Shown: positions 6,616 to 36,404 of the stretch, piece by piece
Layout of the letters: every line of letters begins with the position of its first letter
Numbering within the stretch: position 1 is the stretch's first letter
Assembly (NCBI GenBank): GCA_017434045.1
Contig: JAFRGA010000085.1
Location: forward strand, 1 to 43,999
Reading direction: 5' to 3'
Length of the DNA stretch: 43,999 nucleotides
Origin: Eggerthellaceae bacterium
GTDB lineage: Bacteria > Actinomycetota > Coriobacteriia > Coriobacteriales > Eggerthellaceae
The notes under the pieces: generated by a model
The model's database searches: none
What the model was told of the DNA's origin: nothing
The model's input: only the letters and a program-made list of their open reading frames with translations
Program-made: the position numbers and the translations under genes

Positions 6616-6983
6616 GGGGGCGACTGGTTTCGACATGGTGGGTCTGAGGTGAGGAGCAGGTCGTGGTCTCCTTTCCACGCTAAACAGGGGTACTGTCAAA
6701 ATTAATTGGCAACAAGACTTTTGCTGGGCGTCAGTACGCCCTCGCCGCATAACATAAGTCGGCGCGTCAATTCCGGGTGCTTCCCCGCCCCGGTTGCGAT
6801 GTCATTCTAGGGGAATGCTCTTGCGCACGTAGCCGGTATGGCGCAAGCTAAGACAGAACCGACTCGGGGCAGCAACGCACGTCGTTGCGCTGCGCCGCCC
6901 TTAAACCCGAGCAACGACTAAGCTTGTAGAGCCTGACCAGGGACTCAGTATGGACCGGAGTTCGATTCTCCGCGCCTCCACCA
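6616..6983 (+). ncRNA. ssrA: transfer-messenger RNA (tmRNA)
   Basis: Rescues ribosomes stalled on broken mRNA and tags the nascent chain for proteolysis. The 5' end GGGGGCGACTGGTTTCGACA and the 3' end TTCGATTCTCCGCGCCTCC plus ACCA form the tRNA-like half (acceptor GGGGGCG with CGCCTCC). The tag frame runs 6708-6752 and encodes GNKTFAGRQYALAA, with resume codon GGC and a TAA stop; the ALAA end is the usual protease signal. CCA is encoded. A strong terminator follows. Its partner gene smpB is upstream on the same strand and rnr, whose product degrades tagged mRNAs, is nearby. Confidence 0.97.
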
Positions 6984-6990
6984 CTCATTC

Positions 6991-7023
6991 AGGCGCCGTT
7001 CTGACGAACGGCGCCTTGCTTTT
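6991..7023 (+). terminator. rho-independent terminator of ssrA
   Basis: Perfect 11-base stem AGGCGCCGTTC (6991-7001) with 7006-7016 around loop TGAC, followed by TGCTTTT. Confidence 0.85.
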
Positions 7024-7025
7024 CC

Positions 7026-7136
7026 GCTGAGGGCTTTCATGGCATGCCATCTTTCGCCTTGTTTTGGGCACGGCGCGTACCAAAGTACGCTTGGCCCAAA
7101 GGCGGCGAAATCTGGCGCGCCATGAAAACCCTCAGC
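7026..7136. repeat. long imperfect palindrome between ssrA and the rnr operon
   Basis: The two arms, about 52-55 bases each, meet at a perfect centre GCGTAC-CAAA-GTACGC (7075-7090) and are otherwise about 80-85% complementary with short gaps. Shared outer sequence is GCTGAGGG and shared inner blocks include TTTCATGGC, TTTCGCC and TTTGGGC. It lies between the convergent ssrA and rnr units. The remaining 7137-7354 holds no credible gene; it includes another perfect 10-base inverted repeat, GAAAACGATC (7246-7255) with 7259-7268. Confidence 0.85.
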
Positions 7137-7354
7137 TGCTTTTCCTGGTACGGTTGGGCCACTTTGATCGGGCGACGGCCCCCGCTCCATTCGTGGCTCC
7201 GGCGCGGAGAATGCCCCTCAGCTGAAGCTTCGGGGCCTTTGCGCTGAAAACGATCATCGATCGTTTTCGCGGCGCTGCGCGCCGCCGCGCAAGCCCCCGT
7301 GCCTCAACCACGCTTCCGAGCTCCGTTCCAACGAGTAGGCCGTGCATTACCGCA

Positions 7355-8242
7355 CTACTCTTTGACCTTTAGGGCCCCTTTGAGCCTCTCCGCGCGATAC
7401 CCCTTTGCATTGGCGTTGTTCATTTGGACATGCGTGTGGTTTCCGCCGACGCCTTCGGGCGTATAGAAGAAAAGCTGCACGTCAATCAGGTCTTTTTGAA
7501 TGTCGCGTATATGACTGATCTCGGTGACGCCGGCCTCCACATGATCGCCAGCTTTCACGAGCGGATCGGCCGTATGCAGGAGCACGCAATCTAAATCGGG
7601 CTTGCCGTCAGGTTGGATATGAATCCGTATGTCAGGCACTTCGTCATACAGCTTGTAGTCCTGCACCAAGACGACCGTCCCCGATATAGGAGACCTCACA
7701 ATCGTCCCGGCGGCGGCACCGACGTCTATAGAGGTGTCCATGGGGGTCGTATCGCTCGTTCTCCATATGTGCAGGGCGTCTGCATCGAGCCATTCGCCCT
7801 CAACCTGCTCGTGGTTGATGCGCGTATTACGTTCGTTCAGGGCTTTTGTAGGATCTGCTTCCGGCAGTTTCGTCTCCATCACGAGCGCGTAATCATACGA
7901 CGCTTGATGGAATAAAACTCCCGTCAAATCCGCAGGTCGTATCGGGCAATGGATATCCACGCCTTCCACCTGTGCAATCAGCGGCGTCTGGCTCTTGCGA
8001 AGCTTCTCCAGCCGCTGTTCTTCCAGCTCGGCTTCAGTTAGCGTCGGATCCCCGACGCCGCCGAACAAAACGTCATCGGAGCGATTCTCGCCGCTGTAAG
8101 CCACTTTCTCCGATTGCTGTAATCCAAGCACCTCGAGCACGGGCGCCGCGAAGGGCGGCTTCACGGTGATGACTATGGAACAGAGGCTCACGATCAACAC
8201 AACGATCGAAAGAGCCAGCACTACCACGCTTCTCGCGTTCAT
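7355..8242 (-). CDS. membrane-anchored M23-like (LytM-fold) protein, probably degenerate
   Basis: A 295-residue protein with an N-terminal signal anchor (VVVLALSIVVLIVSLCSIVITV), a charged linker (EAELEEQRLEKLRK), and a C-terminal beta-rich domain resembling peptidase M23: DVGAAAGTIVRSPISGTVVLV, then VLLHTADPLVKAGDHVEAGVTEI and finally GNHTHVQM. The last motif keeps the H-x-H of M23 enzymes. The usual first zinc motif H-x-G-x-D appears as DTSID, so its His is missing and catalysis is doubtful. Non-catalytic LytM proteins are known to act as regulators of cell-wall amidases. It overlaps rnr by four bases (ATGA) and is the last gene of the ftsE-ftsX-S41-rnr set, which fits a cell-wall role. Function is inferred. 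Confidence 0.72.
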   Translation of the reverse strand: MNARSVVVLALSIVVLIVSLCSIVITVKPPFAAPVLEVLGLQQSEKVAYSGENRSDDVLFGGVGDPTLTEAELEEQRLEKLRKSQTPLIAQVEGVDIHCPIRPADLTGVLFHQASYDYALVMETKLPEADPTKALNERNTRINHEQVEGEWLDADALHIWRTSDTTPMDTSIDVGAAAGTIVRSPISGTVVLVQDYKLYDEVPDIRIHIQPDGKPDLDCVLLHTADPLVKAGDHVEAGVTEISHIRDIQKDLIDVQLFFYTPEGVGGNHTHVQMNNANAKGYRAERLKGALKVKE

Positions 8243-10470
8243 TTTGCCAACCTAAATCGTAACCTTTGCGCTCTTCTGTGCGCTTCAACCAACTGAACAG
8301 CTATATGCTTGCCCAGCCGGTATTGACGTCCCGTATCAGCGCCGGTGAGCGTATGCCTGGTCGCATCGAGCGCGAAATACTCGTGGCCCAAATCCGCCAC
8401 CTCGACCACGCCTTCGGCAGTGTTCTCCAAACGCACGAAGAGGCCGAACGAAGCCACGCCCGTGATGATGGCCGAGAACCTCTGGCCGACACTCGACTCC
8501 ATCAACTCGACGATCTTCACCTCTTGCGACTCGCTTGCAGCCCGCTCCGCAATGCGCTCCATCTCGGAAGAGTGTTCGGCTATCCAGGTGAGGTTCTTCA
8601 CTTCCTGGTCAAATTTCTGCGGACGGCCAAGGAGGCTCGCCCTCAACATGCGATGAACGACCAAATCGGGATAACGCCTGATAGGTGATGTGAAATGAGC
8701 GTATGCATCACTTGCGAGCGCGTAGTGGGCACCGAGTTCCGATTCGTAGAGCGCCCGCTTCATCGAACGCAACACCAGCGTCGTCACAAGCGCGCCCTCG
8801 TCGCGTCCCGAGCACTCCTCGAGCACGCGCGCAATCGCATGTGGGTTTCCGGCAACGAACGAGCGGGAATCCACGTCCTTGAACCAGGAAAACTCCTGCA
8901 AAACGGGCAGAAGCCCGGCGAGGCTCTCGCGGGAAGGCTTGTCGTGAGTTCGATATATGCACGGAAAGCCGGCGTCGCGTAGATAGCGTGCCACTGACTC
9001 GTTCGCGGCAATCATCGCCTCTTCGATGAGCTGGGTCGCATCGGTTCTCTTGCGAAGCTCTATGGAGACGGGCGCCCCCTCGCCATCGAGCTTGACCTTC
9101 GCTTCAACCGTATCGAAATCGATTCCCCCGGCCGCTTCGCGAAGCGCCATCCGCTTCTTGGCCAAAGTGGAAAGCTCTCGGACGCACGACTTCAGCTTGT
9201 AGGCGAGATCGCCCCGCACATCGCCCAACTGGCTGTCGCCGTCGATGAGGCCTTGGGCCTCATCGTACGTAAGGCGCGCCTTCGACGAGATGAGCGCCGG
9301 ATACACGTCAACATCCAAGACGCGCCCCTCGTCATCGAGCAACAGGTCGACGGTCATCGTGCGTCGCGTCTCGTTCGGCTTGAGCGAGCAAACCTCGTTG
9401 GACAGCGCCTCGGGCAACATCGGTATAACCCGATCGACCAGGTACACGCTCGTCGCCCTGCGCAGTGCATCCAGGTCGACCGACGATCCCCACGGCACGT
9501 AGTGGGAGACATCCGCGATATGCACTCCCAACCGCCATCCATTTGTTCCGTCGTCATTACCCGAGGGGCCTAACCTGTTCTCACCAGGAAGCGAGGGCTC
9601 CTGCGCTTCGCCGTTGCCACCCGCGGAGTCTGGCCTTTCCCCACCAGATAGCGAGGGCGCCTGTGATGCCCCAGATTGGCGTGAGGACGAGGCGAAGCGG
9701 CCTTCGGGCCGAGAGCCGAGTCCGGAGCGCCAAGATGGGGTATCACAGGCGTCCGCAGCGTGCAGTGTTCCGTCGTTTGTAAAAACGACGGAACAAATAG
9801 ACACTGCGTCGTCGAAGTCGCGCGCATCGGCTGGGTCTATCGTGAAGACGAACCGATCTCGCAAGTCCTTGTAGCCGCTGGACAAAGCGCCATCGACATC
9901 CACTTGCGCTTCGGCCGCCTGCTCGAGGGCGCCCTGGGAGAAAGCCGTTTCCAGCTTGTATCGCGCGACGATCAGGTCGACAGGCACGCGTTCATCGTCG
10001 AAATCGCCAAGCACCTCGACAACCCGACCCGCGGCTGCCTCTTTCCTGCTCGGGTACGTCTCGATGGCAACACGGACAATGGCGCCGTCGGGCACGCTTG
10101 CGCTTTCGGAACGCAACGTGAAGATGTCGTAAGGAATACGGGGGTCCTCCGGAACCACCACCCCGAAGGGCTCGGCCACCTCGTAACGCCCGATTATCTC
10201 AGGGTGGGCGTGCTCGATAACGCGCTTCACGCGCGCTTCGCGCTTGCGCGTCGAGGACGCCGCACGTGCCAAGGCTTTCTTCGAGCGTTCCTGGCGAGCA
10301 GGAGAAACCTCCACCATATCGCCATCGAACGCGCCGTTCAGCTTGTCGAAGGGGATGAAGAACTCGCCTTCGGCGGTTTTCACGAAGCCGTATCCGCCAC
10401 GTGTTATGGCCAAAAGGCCGCGGGGGTATTCATACGCTGTCGGGCGGGTGTTTGAACGATTGCGCGCCAT
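8239..10470 (-). CDS. rnr: ribonuclease R family exoribonuclease with a repeat-built insertion
   Basis: Processive 3'-to-5' exoribonuclease of the RNB family, which degrades structured RNA and, with tmRNA-SmpB, non-stop mRNA. Order in the 743-residue product: N-terminal cold-shock-like domain (RGGYGFVKTAEGEFFIPFDKL), a second OB region, the RNB catalytic domain with TIDPADARDFDDAV (metal-binding Asp cluster, about 206-223) and HIADVSHYV, then HFTSPIRRYPDL VVHR, and a C-terminal S1 domain (AIITGVASFGLFVRLENTAEGVV). Between DDAV and GWRLGVHIADV, where the family usually has about eight residues, there are about 87 (I225-N310 and neighbours), rich in Ser, Gly, Pro and Arg. At DNA level this is a repeat element (9541-9798). 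Four bases separate it from the S41 gene; it overlaps the next gene by ATGA. The enzyme call is firm; the effect of the insertion is unknown. Confidence 0.95.
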   Translation of the reverse strand: MARNRSNTRPTAYEYPRGLLAITRGGYGFVKTAEGEFFIPFDKLNGAFDGDMVEVSPARQERSKKALARAASSTRKREARVKRVIEHAHPEIIGRYEVAEPFGVVVPEDPRIPYDIFTLRSESASVPDGAIVRVAIETYPSRKEAAAGRVVEVLGDFDDERVPVDLIVARYKLETAFSQGALEQAAEAQVDVDGALSSGYKDLRDRFVFTIDPADARDFDDAVSICSVVFTNDGTLHAADACDTPSWRSGLGSRPEGRFASSSRQSGASQAPSLSGGERPDSAGGNGEAQEPSLPGENRLGPSGNDDGTNGWRLGVHIADVSHYVPWGSSVDLDALRRATSVYLVDRVIPMLPEALSNEVCSLKPNETRRTMTVDLLLDDEGRVLDVDVYPALISSKARLTYDEAQGLIDGDSQLGDVRGDLAYKLKSCVRELSTLAKKRMALREAAGGIDFDTVEAKVKLDGEGAPVSIELRKRTDATQLIEEAMIAANESVARYLRDAGFPCIYRTHDKPSRESLAGLLPVLQEFSWFKDVDSRSFVAGNPHAIARVLEECSGRDEGALVTTLVLRSMKRALYESELGAHYALASDAYAHFTSPIRRYPDLVVHRMLRASLLGRPQKFDQEVKNLTWIAEHSSEMERIAERAASESQEVKIVELMESSVGQRFSAIITGVASFGLFVRLENTAEGVVEVADLGHEYFALDATRHTLTGADTGRQYRLGKHIAVQLVEAHRRAQRLRFRLAK
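9541..9798. repeat. coding palindromic insertion inside rnr
   Basis: 258 bases, exactly 86 codons, bounded by perfect 14-base terminal inverted repeats ATTTGTTCCGTCGT (9541-9554) and its complement (9785-9798). Inside are a 24-base inverted pair (9658-9681 with 9728-9751, 21 of 24 matching) and a perfect 13-base hairpin (9766-9778 with 9783-9795). Two imperfect direct repeats also lie inside (about 9567-9605 and 9632-9666), sharing CACCAG and AAGCGAGGG or TAGCGAGGG. It stays open in the rnr frame. Origin by insertion of a mobile or dispersed palindromic element is inference. Confidence 0.85.
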
Positions 10471-18385: not shown

Positions 18386-21259
18386 ATGGCAGGGTTTTTC
18401 TCCAAACTTTTACGCGCCGGCGAAGGCCGCCAGGTTAAGCAGTACCAGAAGGTGGCAGATCGCATCGGCGAGCTCGAACCCCGCATGCAGGCATTATCCG
18501 ACGAGCAACTCGCCCATTTGACCATCGAATACCGTGAGCGCCTCGACCGAGGCGAGGCGCTCGACGCGCTTTTGCCCGAGGCATTCGCCGCCGTGCGCGA
18601 AGCCAGCCTCCGCACTCTCGGGTTGCGCCATTTCGACGTGCAGCTCATCGGCGGCATGGCGTTGAACGACGGGCATATCGCCGAGATGAAGACGGGCGAA
18701 GGCAAAACGCTTGTCTCGACGCTCGCGGGCTATCTGAACGCATTGCCGGGCGACAACGTCCACATCGTCACCGTCAACGACTACCTGGCCAGGCGCGACA
18801 GCGAATGGATGGGTAGAATTTACCGCTTCATGGGCATGAAAGTCGGCCTCATCCAGAACGGCATGCGAAGCGAGGCGAAGAAGCCGGCCTATACCGCCGA
18901 CATCACCTACGGGACGAATTCGGAGTTCGGCTTCGATTACCTGCGCGACAACATGGTAACGAGCGCGGCAGCGCGCGTGCAGCGCGGCCATCACTTCGCC
19001 GTGGTCGACGAGGTCGACTCGATTCTCATCGACGAGGCCAGGACCCCTCTCATCATCTCGGGAGCCGGCAGCGCCGCGGCCGATACGTACAATCAATTCG
19101 CACGCGCCGTCCTAGGTCTCACCCGCGACGTCGACTACCAGATGGACGAGGCGAAACGCACCATCAACGCCACCGAAATCGGCCTGGAGCGAATCGAGGC
19201 GAACCTGGGCATCGACGACATCTACGCAGACACGTCGGGCACGTTGGCCAATCACCTTCAACAGGCCCTGAAAGCGCAGTACCTGTTCCATCGTGACGTC
19301 GACTACGTGGTCACGCAGGGCGAAGTGAAGATCGTCGACGAGTTCACCGGCCGCATCATGGAAGGGCGCCGCTGGTCAGAGGGCCTGCACCAAGCCGTGG
19401 AAGCCAAGGAGCACGTGCGCGTGAAGGAAGAGAACCAAACGCTCGCGACCATCACGCTGCAGAACTACTTCCGCCTGTACAAGAAGCTCTCGGGCATGAC
19501 GGGCACCGCCATGACCGAGGACTCCGAGTTCCGCCAAATCTACAAGCTGGAAGTCACGGCCATCCCGCCGAACAAACCCGTCATTCGCAACGACCGCAAC
19601 GACCAGGTGTATAGGACCATCGACGCGAAATTCAACGCCGTCGCCGACGAAATCGCCTCGCGCAACGCCATCGGGCAACCATGCCTGGTCGGCACCGTCT
19701 CGATCGAAAGCTCGGAGAGGCTGTCCCGCCTGCTCGACAAGCGCGGGATCCGCCACGAAACCCTCAATGCCAAGAATCACGAGCGCGAGGCGCATATCGT
19801 GGCGCAAGCCGGCAGGTCCGGCGCGGTCACCATCGCCACGAACATGGCCGGCCGTGGTACGGACATCCTGCTCGGCGGCAACCCCGAGGCCCTTGCCGAC
19901 GACCTCCTCCGCAATCGCGGCTTCAACCCCGACGCCGACCCCGCCCGTGAAGCCGCATTGCGCGCTGCTGCAGAAGAAGCGCTTTCCTCCAGCGAGCCCC
20001 GCGTCCGCGCCAAGGCGAAAGAGGTTCTCAACCAGCTCGAGAACGCCTTGCCAGCCCCATCGCCCGACGACTACGAGCGCGCCTTGGCAGAGGCGAAGCA
20101 GGTCACGGAAGCCGAACGTGAACAGGTCATCGCGGCGGGCGGCCTGCTCGTCATCGGGACCGAGCGGCATGAATCACGCCGTATCGACAACCAGTTGCGA
20201 GGCCGTTCAGGACGTCAGGGCGACCCCGGAGAATCCCAGTTCTACCTCTCGTTGGAAGATGACCTCATGCGCCGCTTCGGCGGAGACCGCATGGACAGCA
20301 TCTCGAAGATGATGCAGAGGACGAACCTTCCCGACGATCAACCGATCGAAGCCGGCATGGTGTCGAAGGCCATCGAGAGCGCTCAGCACTCCGTTGAGGC
20401 CATGCACTTCGCAGCGCGTAAGAACGTCCTCGAATACGACGACGTCATGAACTTGCAGCGTACGGCCATCTACGACGAACGCAACGCCATCCTGGACGGC
20501 AAGGACATGTCGGACCGCGTTCCCCAGATCATCGCCGACTGCGCACAGGGCATCGTCGACGAGAACTGCCCCGAGAGGACGACGAGCGAAGAGTGGGACA
20601 TCGCCTCTATAGAGGCTTGGATCACCAGCATGACCGGGCGCGAGGACTTCTCCGTTGACGAGATAGACCATGACGAGAACCCGGCGGTGCTCGTCCGGGC
20701 AATCGAGGCTTATCTGACCGAGATCTACAACGAGAAGCTCGACGAAGTCGGGCCCGAGGTCATGGGGCGTCTCGAAGGCCAGGTCATGCTCCGCATCATG
20801 GACGCCCGTTGGATGGCTCATCTGCAAGACATGGACTACCTGCGTGCCGGCATCGGCTTGCGCGCCTACGGCCAGCGCGACCCCTTGACCGAATACCGCG
20901 ACGAAGCGTACAACGCCTTCTCGCGCATGACGGGCACGTTGTACGAAGACTACCTGCGCACGCTCCTGCGCCTTCAGGTCGCACATCAGCCGGCTGAGCC
21001 CGAGCCAACCCAAGAGGACCCGCTCGCAGGCAAACGCGTGAGCTATTCGAATCCCGAGGAGAACCTGGAAGCGAGCAACGCTGGAAGGGCACCTGCTCCG
21101 CAGAGGTCCAACGCCGCCCCCGCCCCTCAACCCACCTCGAAACCGACAACTTACGTGAAAGACAAAGACGACCCCTATGCGAACGTGGGTCGAAACGACC
21201 CGTGTCCCTGCGGCTCGGGGAAGAAGTTCAAGAAATGCCACGGGATGTACGTGGATTAG
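18386..21259 (+). CDS. secA: preprotein translocase ATPase SecA
   Basis: ATP-driven motor that pushes unfolded preproteins through the SecYEG channel. The 957-residue protein has Walker A MKTGEGKTLV, the preprotein cross-linking region, DEAD-like VVDEVDSILIDEARTPLIISG, the second helicase half (TNMAGRGTDILLGGNP, GRSGRQGDPG) and the helical wing and scaffold. It ends in a zinc-binding SEC-C tail, DPCPCGSGKKFKKCHG, with three Cys and a His, which binds SecB or ribosomes in other bacteria. About 40 extra residues lie between the two helicase halves after LLGGNPEALADDLLRNRG, as in many actinobacteria. AAGG precedes the ATG. The stop codon is inside a perfect hairpin. Confidence 0.97.
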   Translation: MAGFFSKLLRAGEGRQVKQYQKVADRIGELEPRMQALSDEQLAHLTIEYRERLDRGEALDALLPEAFAAVREASLRTLGLRHFDVQLIGGMALNDGHIAEMKTGEGKTLVSTLAGYLNALPGDNVHIVTVNDYLARRDSEWMGRIYRFMGMKVGLIQNGMRSEAKKPAYTADITYGTNSEFGFDYLRDNMVTSAAARVQRGHHFAVVDEVDSILIDEARTPLIISGAGSAAADTYNQFARAVLGLTRDVDYQMDEAKRTINATEIGLERIEANLGIDDIYADTSGTLANHLQQALKAQYLFHRDVDYVVTQGEVKIVDEFTGRIMEGRRWSEGLHQAVEAKEHVRVKEENQTLATITLQNYFRLYKKLSGMTGTAMTEDSEFRQIYKLEVTAIPPNKPVIRNDRNDQVYRTIDAKFNAVADEIASRNAIGQPCLVGTVSIESSERLSRLLDKRGIRHETLNAKNHEREAHIVAQAGRSGAVTIATNMAGRGTDILLGGNPEALADDLLRNRGFNPDADPAREAALRAAAEEALSSSEPRVRAKAKEVLNQLENALPAPSPDDYERALAEAKQVTEAEREQVIAAGGLLVIGTERHESRRIDNQLRGRSGRQGDPGESQFYLSLEDDLMRRFGGDRMDSISKMMQRTNLPDDQPIEAGMVSKAIESAQHSVEAMHFAARKNVLEYDDVMNLQRTAIYDERNAILDGKDMSDRVPQIIADCAQGIVDENCPERTTSEEWDIASIEAWITSMTGREDFSVDEIDHDENPAVLVRAIEAYLTEIYNEKLDEVGPEVMGRLEGQVMLRIMDARWMAHLQDMDYLRAGIGLRAYGQRDPLTEYRDEAYNAFSRMTGTLYEDYLRTLLRLQVAHQPAEPEPTQEDPLAGKRVSYSNPEENLEASNAGRAPAPQRSNAAPAPQPTSKPTTYVKDKDDPYANVGRNDPCPCGSGKKFKKCHGMYVD

Positions 21260-21284
21260 GCGTTCGTAAGAACGCCTAATCCAC
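21251..21284 (+). terminator. perfect hairpin spanning the secA stop codon
   Basis: GTGGATTAGGCGTTC (21251-21265) pairs with 21270-21284 without mismatch around loop GTAA. The secA TAG lies in the 5' arm. There is no T-run. Confidence 0.65.
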
Positions 21285-26976: not shown

Positions 26977-27064
26977 CTAACCGTGCGCTACCGTTTCAAA
27001 ATCATGATAGCCGCAGGTCGAGGAAAAACCAGCGAGCGGAAGCGATACGCGCCATATAGACACG

Positions 27065-27106
27065 AAAGTCCGCCGACACGTACTTCACGTACGCGAGGCG
27101 GACTTT
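27065..27106 (-). terminator. hairpin between rpmA and obgE
   Basis: AAAGTCCGCC (27065-27074) pairs perfectly with 27097-27106, with an inner CGTAC/GTACG pair. On the minus strand the 3' arm ends in TTT. It may reduce read-through into obgE. Confidence 0.5.
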
Positions 27107-27148
27107 GAGTGGCTGGCTGGCGCTTATCGCTTTCGCGCAGCAGCGGTA

Positions 27149-27177
27149 GAACGGCCGCCCGTGAAGAGCGGCCGTTC
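27149..27177 (-). terminator. hairpin just after rpmA
   Basis: GAACGGCCGC (27149-27158) pairs perfectly with 27168-27177, eight bases past the rpmA stop. No T-run follows. Confidence 0.5.
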
Positions 27178-33292: not shown

Positions 33293-35635
33293 TTATTTTC
33301 CCTCGCGCTTCGCATGGGCGGAGACGAATGACTTCAGCGTGTTTGCCGTCATGGCAGGCCCCGTGTTCGAAATATTGTACAACCCGCCCCTCACAACTTG
33401 CACCAAATAGGGAAGAGGATTCACTTTCGGCATTTCCACGCCTTTCAGCTGAGCATAGAGTTCCTTCGAACCAGGAGATACATTCGGTTCGGAAAACACG
33501 AGGTCATCATCCATGCGCTTGAAAACCGAGAGGATCTTCTCGCGCACGTCTTCTTCGGATAGGTCGTGGTATTCCAATATGAGGCCAATATACGTGAAGC
33601 CTCGGCGCACGTGGGCGCGGCGGATGCTCTCGTCGGTCACGCCCAGGCGCTCGTACACGTCCATCATGTCATGCCATCGATCGAGCGATACCTGCCAACT
33701 ACCCCGCGCCATGTTCGCCGTCTTCTCGGGCGTTTCCTCACGATAGCTGTAGAAAGGCTCGTCAAGATACACGATGGACTCCGCCTGACAGAGCGTTTCG
33801 GCCAAGAAGGGATTGTCAGCCCATCCCGCACCGGGTATCTCGCGCATGCGGATATTGCACCTATCCAGGAAATCCTTTCGATACAGTGCCGACCAGATTG
33901 ACGGATGGTGGATGATCAGGTGGGTCACGCCGGGGTCGGTGAGTTTGAACGGTTGCGCTGCGGGCTTGATCCGTCCACGGTAGCTGCAGTTGACGCGCCG
34001 TTGCTGATCGGTATCGGGCATCCATATACGCCAATACGGCGTCTTCACGATATCGACCGGCGTCGGGAACAACACCGCATAATCGGTCATCGCCTGATAC
34101 ATTTCCGGTGCGATCCAGTCGTCAGGCTCGACGATTGCGATCCAGGTACCCCGGGCTTCCGCGAAGCCCAGATTGCATGCTGATCCATACCCTCCATTGG
34201 GTTTGTTTATTATCTTGATACGCCCATCGAGCACAGCGTGCTTCTTCAAGATCTCGGGCGACCCGTCCGTGGAGCCATCGTTCACGCAGATGATCTCGAT
34301 GTCGGCAAGTGTTTGCGCCTGTATGCTGTCAAGCGCTTGGTCGAGGAACTTCTCGACGTTGTAAACCGGTACGATGACCGAAACGAGCGGTCCGGACGCA
34401 GATGCGGGCCCTGCCCCACCAGATTCCATTAAGGCAGCGAGGGAGCTTGCCTGCACCTCAACCGGTCGATCCTCTGCAGCTTCGTAAGCGGAACGCCCCT
34501 CCATCTGCTCGGTTAACTCGATTTCCTCTTCCCGTTCCGACGATTTCAGCAACATATGCCTGTTTTCGAGCAGCTTCGCCACCGCCCGCTCGGCAGCCGT
34601 CACCAAAAGGTCCGCTGCTCCGTATTCGGCGATGCGCCAGGCGAAGAGCGCTCGGGAAAGCTCTTTCTCAGTTACCGCGAGCACACCTTCGTCACTTGCA
34701 TCGAGGACGATTCGAATAAGCTGCATCGTCTCGTCGTTAACCTCGAGAGATTTAAGCTCGTCGCTCGTGAGGTTTGCGCACCACATGTGCTTCACGATTG
34801 CTGTCAGCTGTTCGCGCAGTTCAACCGGCTGGCGCAGAATCGTGTAAAGCTGGCCATGAACAAACCATTTCATAAGCTGAGAGGCGAATTTTTCCAACAG
34901 CCCCTCCTGCTTCCACTTCGCGAAGATGCAAATCGCCGCATTGAGGTCGCAAATGCACAGATGGGAGACGTCGTACTTGTAATCGGCCATGATCGACCCC
35001 TCATGCGGCAGCCGGTACCGATAGAGCTTATCGGAGATGAGCTTCACGGCGCCAATTCGAGGATACAACGAGAAGAGGAAGACGGAATCCTCGCCCACGC
35101 GCAACGACTCGTCGAAGAAGACGCCGCTTTCCAAGAGTGCAGCACGGCGTATGGCGATTCGCAAATACGGGTTCGACATCTCTTCGAACAGCAGCTCTGG
35201 CGCAAATTGGGGGTACACCGCATCGCGCACGTTCGCATGCTCGCGGACAAACCGGTCTGCAAGCTTTGCGGGAAAATATGACCATCCGAATACAAGGGCG
35301 TCGTACGAGCCCTCCTCCAATACGGCGGACATCTTCTCAAGCGCATAAGGTTCAAGCTGGTCATCAGCGTCGAGGAAGCAGACGTACTCGCCTTGGGCGA
35401 TGCGAAGACCGTCGTTTCGAGCACTCGAAGGCCCTCCATTCGCCTTGTCGATGACGCGGATGCGCGCATCGGAGAACGACCGATCCGACAGAATCTCGCG
35501 AGAGCCGTCCGTCGACCCGTCGTTTATGCAGATGACCTCGAAATCCCCACAGGTTTGACCGCAGACGGAATCCAGGCATTCATCCAGGTACTGCTCTGCG
35601 TTGTAGACTGCGACGATAATCGAGAAACGGGGCAT
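33293..35635 (-). CDS. two-domain family 2 glycosyltransferase
   Basis: A 780-residue protein with two GT-A, family 2 domains. The first starts FSIIVAVYNAEQYLDECLDSV and has INDGSTDGS and FLDADDQLEP as the nucleotide-sugar and metal motif. The second starts VSVIVPVYNVEKFLDQALDSIQAQ and has VNDGSTDGS and VEPDDWIAP. A region of about 170 residues plus a low-complexity linker (SSLAALMESGGAGPAS) joins them. No membrane helix is evident, so it would act at the cytosolic face, probably extending a lipid-linked glycan. The ATG at 35635 follows the strong site AGGAGGAAGG. The linker DNA (34407-34455) resembles the repeat in the rnr insertion. Sugar specificity cannot be told. Confidence 0.9.
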   Translation of the reverse strand: MPRFSIIVAVYNAEQYLDECLDSVCGQTCGDFEVICINDGSTDGSREILSDRSFSDARIRVIDKANGGPSSARNDGLRIAQGEYVCFLDADDQLEPYALEKMSAVLEEGSYDALVFGWSYFPAKLADRFVREHANVRDAVYPQFAPELLFEEMSNPYLRIAIRRAALLESGVFFDESLRVGEDSVFLFSLYPRIGAVKLISDKLYRYRLPHEGSIMADYKYDVSHLCICDLNAAICIFAKWKQEGLLEKFASQLMKWFVHGQLYTILRQPVELREQLTAIVKHMWCANLTSDELKSLEVNDETMQLIRIVLDASDEGVLAVTEKELSRALFAWRIAEYGAADLLVTAAERAVAKLLENRHMLLKSSEREEEIELTEQMEGRSAYEAAEDRPVEVQASSLAALMESGGAGPASASGPLVSVIVPVYNVEKFLDQALDSIQAQTLADIEIICVNDGSTDGSPEILKKHAVLDGRIKIINKPNGGYGSACNLGFAEARGTWIAIVEPDDWIAPEMYQAMTDYAVLFPTPVDIVKTPYWRIWMPDTDQQRRVNCSYRGRIKPAAQPFKLTDPGVTHLIIHHPSIWSALYRKDFLDRCNIRMREIPGAGWADNPFLAETLCQAESIVYLDEPFYSYREETPEKTANMARGSWQVSLDRWHDMMDVYERLGVTDESIRRAHVRRGFTYIGLILEYHDLSEEDVREKILSVFKRMDDDLVFSEPNVSPGSKELYAQLKGVEMPKVNPLPYLVQVVRGGLYNISNTGPAMTANTLKSFVSAHAKREGK
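34407..34455. repeat. repeat unit in the glycosyltransferase linker, related to the rnr insertion
   Basis: Shares GGCC-T-CCCCACCAGAT and, after a short insertion, AGCGAGGG and GCCTG with 9632-9666 inside rnr. In both genes it is read on the minus strand in the same frame: QASSL...SGGAGP here against QAPSLSGGERP in rnr. Confidence 0.5.
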
Positions 35636-35669
35636 GACCTTCCTCCTGCCTGTCGGTACGGGCATCTCA

Positions 35670-36404
35670 TCACGAGACTGCGCCGTCTTGACCTCGGCTC
35701 TCCTGTTCATCTTGTACGTAAATGCCCTCCTGTAGGAACACCGTGGAGAACGTCCGCGCGAAAACGCTGGCATCGAGCGGAAAGCTCATATGGTCGACGT
35801 AGTACACGTCAAGCGCCAAGCGGTCATGCCAGGGAAGGGAGTTTCTCCCATATACCGCAGCATATCCGGTGATTCCCGGCTTTACCGTCAGCTTCCGCGA
35901 TTCCTCCCCCTCGTACAGCTCGGTTTCGCGCTTCAAGTCGGGACGGGGGCCCACTACGCTCATATCGCCCTTCAAGACGTTCAGGAACTGGGGCAGTTCG
36001 TCAACGCTTGTCTTGCGCATGATCCTTCCCACGCGCGTCATGCGAGGATCGTCGGCTCCGTTGTAAGTCGACCCATCCTCCATGACCAAATCAGGCGCGT
36101 TCACCTTCATGGACCGCAGCTTGTACATGATGAACTCTTCACCGCCCATGCCGACGCGCTCTGCGTTGTAGAACACGGGCCCGCCATCTTCGGCCTTGAT
36201 AGCCAAACCGCACGCAGCCGTCACAGCACCCACGAACGGCAATGCGACAAGGCTCACCGCAACGTCGCAAGCACGTTTTCCAAATCGCTGGTAAAACGTG
36301 CCTTTCGTCTGGGTCTTCAGCTGATCGAACACGGCAACAACCGTAGAGGACGCGGCGATTGCCAAAAGAACACCGGTGACGACTCGACCTGCCCGACCGC
36401 TCAT
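35670..36404 (-). CDS. undecaprenyl-phosphate sugar-1-phosphate transferase (initiating glycosyltransferase)
   Basis: A 244-residue member of the bacterial sugar transferase family (PF02397), which puts the first sugar phosphate on the lipid carrier. Seen: an N-terminal membrane helix ([19 protein letters not shown]), [24 protein letters not shown] as the re-entrant helix, [25 protein letters not shown], the catalytic [36 protein letters not shown] and [18 protein letters not shown]. This short form lacks the four-helix N-terminus of WbaP. The ATG overlaps the aminotransferase stop (ATGA) with GGAGG upstream. The sugar may be the amino sugar produced by the dehydratase and aminotransferase in this block, which is inference. 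Confidence 0.93.

Follow-up and report, generated by a model that had tools for sequence, protein, structure and literature searches.

The insertion within the RNase R gene rnr in the 43,999 bp of an Eggerthellaceae genome analysed here (the window) is a genuine dispersed palindromic repeat. It belongs to a structured repeat with a preference for the place behind stop codons and with occasional in-frame copies in genes. Our overall reading, to which we assign a probability of roughly 80%, is that the rnr insertion is a dispersed Coriobacteriales palindromic element of the MITE/REP-like type that is tolerated within genes, and that the match to it in a double glycosyltransferase gene arose by chance in a fast-changing linker. 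The coordinates of the features are collected in Table 1, where G000 is the genome that contains the window.

Table 1. Features of the window and copies of the element found in frame within genes
Feature	Genome	Position	Strand	Basis
rnr (RNase R), 743 aa; no other full-length match in the genome	G000	8239..10470	-	translation and Pfam
In-frame RNase R insertion, residues 228–305	G000	9556..9789	-	alignment to solved RNase R (8cdu)
Core element (121.8 bits): long hairpin flanked by GCGAG and GCAGCG boxes	G000	9643..9768	+	model R1
Second hairpin of rnr element, loop GTAA on + strand	G000	9766..9795	+	arms read by eye
Partial second left end of element (unit 1 of the preliminary description)	G000	9567..9605	+	30-base similarity to unit 2
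Further element copy, 33 bases past tmRNA gene (6616–6983, +)	G000	7017..7144	-	R1
Further element copy, between minus-strand genes	G000	27024..27150	+	R1
Double family-2 glycosyltransferase gene, 826 aa	G000	33293..35773	-	translation and Pfam
Reported 'unit': ordinary variable linker joining two GT2 domains, no repeat copy	G000	34407..34455	-	
rnr in-gene copies, same site	G000 and G012			
Aconitase in-gene copy	G000	residues 190–267		unmatched against solved structure
recQ in-gene copy, element's other strand	G021	residues 399–449		unmatched against solved structure
tsaB-rimI-tsaD fusion in-gene copy	G020			names read from translation
phnJ in-gene copy, at gene end	G021			name read from translation

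Alignment of the rnr product with 8cdu left the inserted residues unmatched, and the positions flanking them are nearly adjacent in the solved structure. The distance from the DFDDA motif to HIADV is 99 residues in the window's own genome, 86 in G012 and 80 in G008; of the 27 readable loci (own locus included; 30 tried), 20 have 19–28 residues. Asp 212, 218, 220 and 221, just ahead of the insert, are nearly invariant. In a structure model of RNase R built from 25 sequences (mean pLDDT 85.3), residues 246–305, between strands 236–238 and 309–319, are the only long internal stretch below 50 pLDDT, and most of the insertion is modelled as an unstructured loop. The corresponding loop of G008 (L045/L103) holds another in-frame insertion, in which GCGAG and GCGCAG boxes are surrounded by a long inverted repeat and whose layout apparently differs from that of the element described here.

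The preliminary description had recognized two similar units within rnr, and this likeness was borne out, with 30 bases alignable between them. A genome search matched the rnr insertion to many further places in its own genome. A covariance model, R1, was built from 14 aligned copies, in which 24 of the 32 consensus pairs show two-sided changes; the rnr copy belonged to this seed alignment, which bears on its own score. At E≤1, R1 matched 40 places in the window's genome; of the 41 Coriobacteriales genomes searched, 20 (from 11 of 27 genera, all of one order) gave matches. Summed over the 20 genomes, 232 matches were counted. The nearest named records of the carriers are Eggerthellaceae or Coriobacteriaceae, mostly metagenome assemblies. 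Thus, the repeat is dispersed as had been claimed for the rnr insertion, but the claim does not extend to the glycosyltransferase place.

We studied 146 copies, the best of the genome searches among the matches listed; they are a non-random set in which copies from the same genome are counted separately. The starts of the GCGAG box and the GCAGCG-like box lie 103–105 bases apart in 116 of the 146 copies among the matches listed. Across 105 copies, 93.7% of the pair cells of the long hairpin between the boxes are standard and 28 of 32 pairs vary on both sides, giving a covariation score of 0.667; shuffling lowers this to 0.209, and slid pairings do not exceed 0.104. When the rnr elements of the window and G012 are compared, 21 of 32 pairs are unchanged, seven have two-sided and one has one-sided changes that keep the pair, and three are broken. 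On the + strand, the long hairpin includes 291 G.T and 71 A.C cells, a count on which it bears that R1 itself favours G.T and that two wobble pairs supply 141 of the former and one of the latter. Tandem elements, two copies 136–166 bases apart in one orientation, were seen at four loci (L189, L191, L199 and L273). In the window, positions 21250–21283 hold a 15 bp hairpin with a GTAA loop, followed by CGCACGCTCG, that is perhaps the remnant of an element.

Among the matches listed, 140 copies are non-coding, and 109 of these have the stop of a sense-strand gene within 150 bases upstream. The distance from stop to element is 26–40 bases in 80/140, in a single orientation, while on the opposite side a gene stop is near only 36/140 and there is no distance peak. 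Genes were called with a simple codon score, by which 31 non-coding copies are without such a stop, some of them sitting after tRNA or tmRNA genes. TGA is rarer before elements (4/96) than at other genes in the same loci (29/248), a difference too weak to support targeting of stop codons. Judged by position, most copies either insert or are retained immediately past a stop codon, in one orientation.

A second hairpin adjoins the GCAGCG box in 128 of the 146 copies among the matches listed, with mismatches allowed. Read on the + strand, its loop starts with G and ends with A in 111 of the 128 (78 four-base and 33 three-base loops). A stricter count of loops gave G..A in 27/28 of three bases and 53/59 of four bases, only 15 of the latter being GNRA. 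Control hairpins in the same loci have such loops in 13/66 and 6/41 cases (19/107 for three- and four-base loops together), even with either orientation counted. Loops of the GNNA type are stable in DNA. GNA loops are likewise characterized as extraordinarily stable DNA minihairpins in a passage of PMC6479982 that cites Yoshizawa 1997. Mismatch cells in the second hairpin, on the + strand, are 10 G.T and 21 A.C, the reverse of the long hairpin. The two hairpins lean in opposite directions, which is compatible with folding of either strand, as DNA or as RNA.

It is possible, though unlikely, that the family is immobile, being a structured RNA or an mRNA 3′-end element selected behind stops, with in-gene copies produced by local rearrangements. 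The sharp stop-codon distance and single orientation, the covarying arms of the long hairpin, the copies after tRNA and tmRNA genes and the lean of the second-hairpin mismatches toward the sense strand would all suit such a role. However, the strand on which the long hairpin tolerates G.T is antisense to the gene upstream, a T run of the kind found in intrinsic terminators follows the second hairpin in only 4 of 87 copies, and the second hairpin comes along with the in-gene copies in rnr and aconitase. Nor was there any Rfam match at gathering scores: known Rfam RNAs were ruled out, with no match at elements in 15 sources and only sub-threshold matches in seven sources, tmRNA excepted.

Correction of one arm from the other by template switching is a known mutational process, and both arms change together inside rnr as well. 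We nevertheless find it quite improbable that the arms covary through switching from one to the other in a quasi-palindrome whose structure is not under selection. Neither the length nor the boxes would be maintained by template switching, nor would the loop rule, which second hairpins follow in 111/128 elements as against 19/107 controls.

The element was compared with known families by description. Rickettsia palindromic elements (RPEs) are, as summarized in part of PMC10969869, palindromic repeats of approximately 150 bp found in frame within unrelated metabolic genes, and the in-frame copies in conserved genes reported here (6/146, among the matches listed) resemble them as intragenic palindromes. 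Unlike RPEs, the Coriobacteriales copies are mostly outside genes, behind stops, and the host phylum is another. REPs, including GTAG- and CGTC-tagged palindromes, are placed near gene 3′ ends, with some inside ORFs, in a section of PMC3733652, and REP hairpins are recognised by TnpA-REP according to a passage of PMC8266576. The Coriobacteriales element is also found near gene 3′ ends, with some copies within ORFs, but its hairpin is much longer, of near-fixed length and accompanied by two boxes. GTAG was found near the second hairpin in merely 6/87 copies on the + strand and 9/87 on the sense strand.

The Y1 transposase domain PF01797 occurs in 14 of 20 element-bearing genomes and 8 of 21 element-free ones, and is missing from six element genomes, including G007, G009, G019 and G021, which have 12–29 copies. 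Given this distribution, no transposase could be assigned to the element by Y1 co-occurrence among the 41 genomes. The rarity of GTAG and a Y1 transposase that does not track the elements rule out membership of the REP/RAYT group. The window's own genome includes a Y1-type transposase (164 aa open frame; G000:C7:44957-45313, L241) that is likewise left unassigned to the element.

PMC5896051 describes the Coxiella elements QMITE1 and QMITE2 as small elements that form hairpins; certain copies are in frame or lie at the 3′ end of a gene. They differ in host, and the QMITEs in functional annotated genes are there described at 3′ ends, while four of the five in-gene sites found here are internal. 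The pneumococcal BOX, RUP and SPRITE repeats, named in a passage of PMC10969869 as clustered modular intergenic repeats, some of them terminator-like, resemble the Coriobacteriales element by description. In searches of an open-access library, none of the listed titles or abstracts described the Coriobacteriales family, which would then be a new family of the REP/RPE-like kind.

The six in-frame copies occupy five sites in conserved genes (Table 1). Comparison with solved structures confirmed that two of the genes encode aconitase and RecQ. In aconitase, the stretch from HQLNIE to GTDSH is 103 residues long in the window's genome versus 33–52 residues in the readable 17 of the 19 other loci, a comparison from which L365 and L367 were left out. 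In G004 (L352), the same aconitase loop contains a different, near-perfect palindrome in frame, and is 52 residues long compared with 33 in several relatives. The four sites that use the sense strand share one common frame (GAC-GCT-GCG and variants, x-A-A). It had been proposed that the repeat is selected to remain open in that one frame. The frame used by the proteins is open in 30 of 83 non-coding copies, compared with 40 and 41 for the remaining sense frames; therefore, openness is not a general property of the element, and the proposal is not supported. Open frames through the elements at L214, L239, L288 and L311 looked like shadow frames of opposite-strand genes and were not counted. Tolerance inside proteins, in one frame at the sense-strand sites, was upheld for rnr, aconitase, recQ, rimI and phnJ but not for the glycosyltransferase.

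The glycosyltransferase linker had been presented as a third coding copy of the rnr unit. As described, the second rnr unit (9632–9666) and the linker share CCCCACCAGAT (34414–34424) and AGCGAGGG (34436–34443) in the same order, although in our alignment the two blocks are spaced 11 bases wider in the glycosyltransferase. The further statement that both are read in the same frame holds for ATCTGGTGGGG, which has equal codon phase in both genes. It does not hold for the octamer CCCTCGCT, which the two rnr copies read as CCC-TCG-CTN (P-S-L) but the glycosyltransferase as tCC-CTC-GCT (S-L-A), so that the seemingly common S-L is yielded by different codons. The 11-mer belongs to flanking sequence outside the conserved element, and when sought via its 7-base core this flank was found in one of the 146 copies among the matches listed, rnr itself.

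The alignment of rnr unit 2 to the linker has a score of 29. Equal or better scores were obtained in 8.5% of 200 order-2 Markov windows of equal length, scanned on both strands with both units, and other minus-strand places in the real window score 27 and 26. At 8.5%, the match is not far from notable. When 34380–34500 was used to search the whole genome, the best match besides itself had an E value of only 0.125. With filters off, R1 gave 10.3 bits (E 0.79) at 34429–34489, like many noise matches in the window, and 34407–34455 lacks the covarying long hairpin that the family has between its two boxes. The two best orthologues, G009 (74% identity) and G012 (72%), can be aligned to almost the full length of the glycosyltransferase; their linkers are of similar or slightly greater length and lack the motif, and the alignments show no insertion-like gap. 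The linker of a third orthologue, G011, is acidic and much longer. The comparison of orthologues thus revealed no gain of a repeat, and the random-sequence control did not set the match apart. The genome search, the orthologues, the R1 score, the random windows and the codon phase rule out the linker as a member of the family, and from these and the 1/146 flank we conclude that the match is due to chance. That the linker is instead a decayed, partly deleted left end of the element is very improbable: it includes a GCGAG box in GCAGCGAGGG and its unit 2 score exceeds the best (28) reached when 40 random sequences were scanned with this unit on one strand, but random scans with unit 1 attain 29, as do 8.5% of the two-strand, two-unit trials, the shared 11-mer is outside the conserved element, and the linker has no hairpin and is similar in length to those of G009 and G012.

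The dispersed element is a long, near-constant hairpin between two short boxes followed by a second hairpin, and it would most likely move as a folded single strand on which an enzyme acts in trans. Copies would occasionally land in genes and, where length, frame and a site at a surface turn fit, might add an unstructured loop of approximately 50–78 residues. The in-frame state and the site are observed directly; the intact, single-copy genes suggest that the loops are tolerated. A bolder view, which we regard as rather unlikely, is that the family represents a novel type of mobile single-stranded DNA carried by some enzyme. The GNA/GNNA loop of the second hairpin would be kept while the stem varies freely, the element would be aimed just behind stop codons, and a missed aim would add in-frame loops to essential enzymes.

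With the false third copy removed, a defined family of elements takes its place. This family is a natural test of the spread of palindromic DNA behind stop codons, and also of how RNase R and aconitase absorb insertions of approximately 70 residues while the gene is retained.
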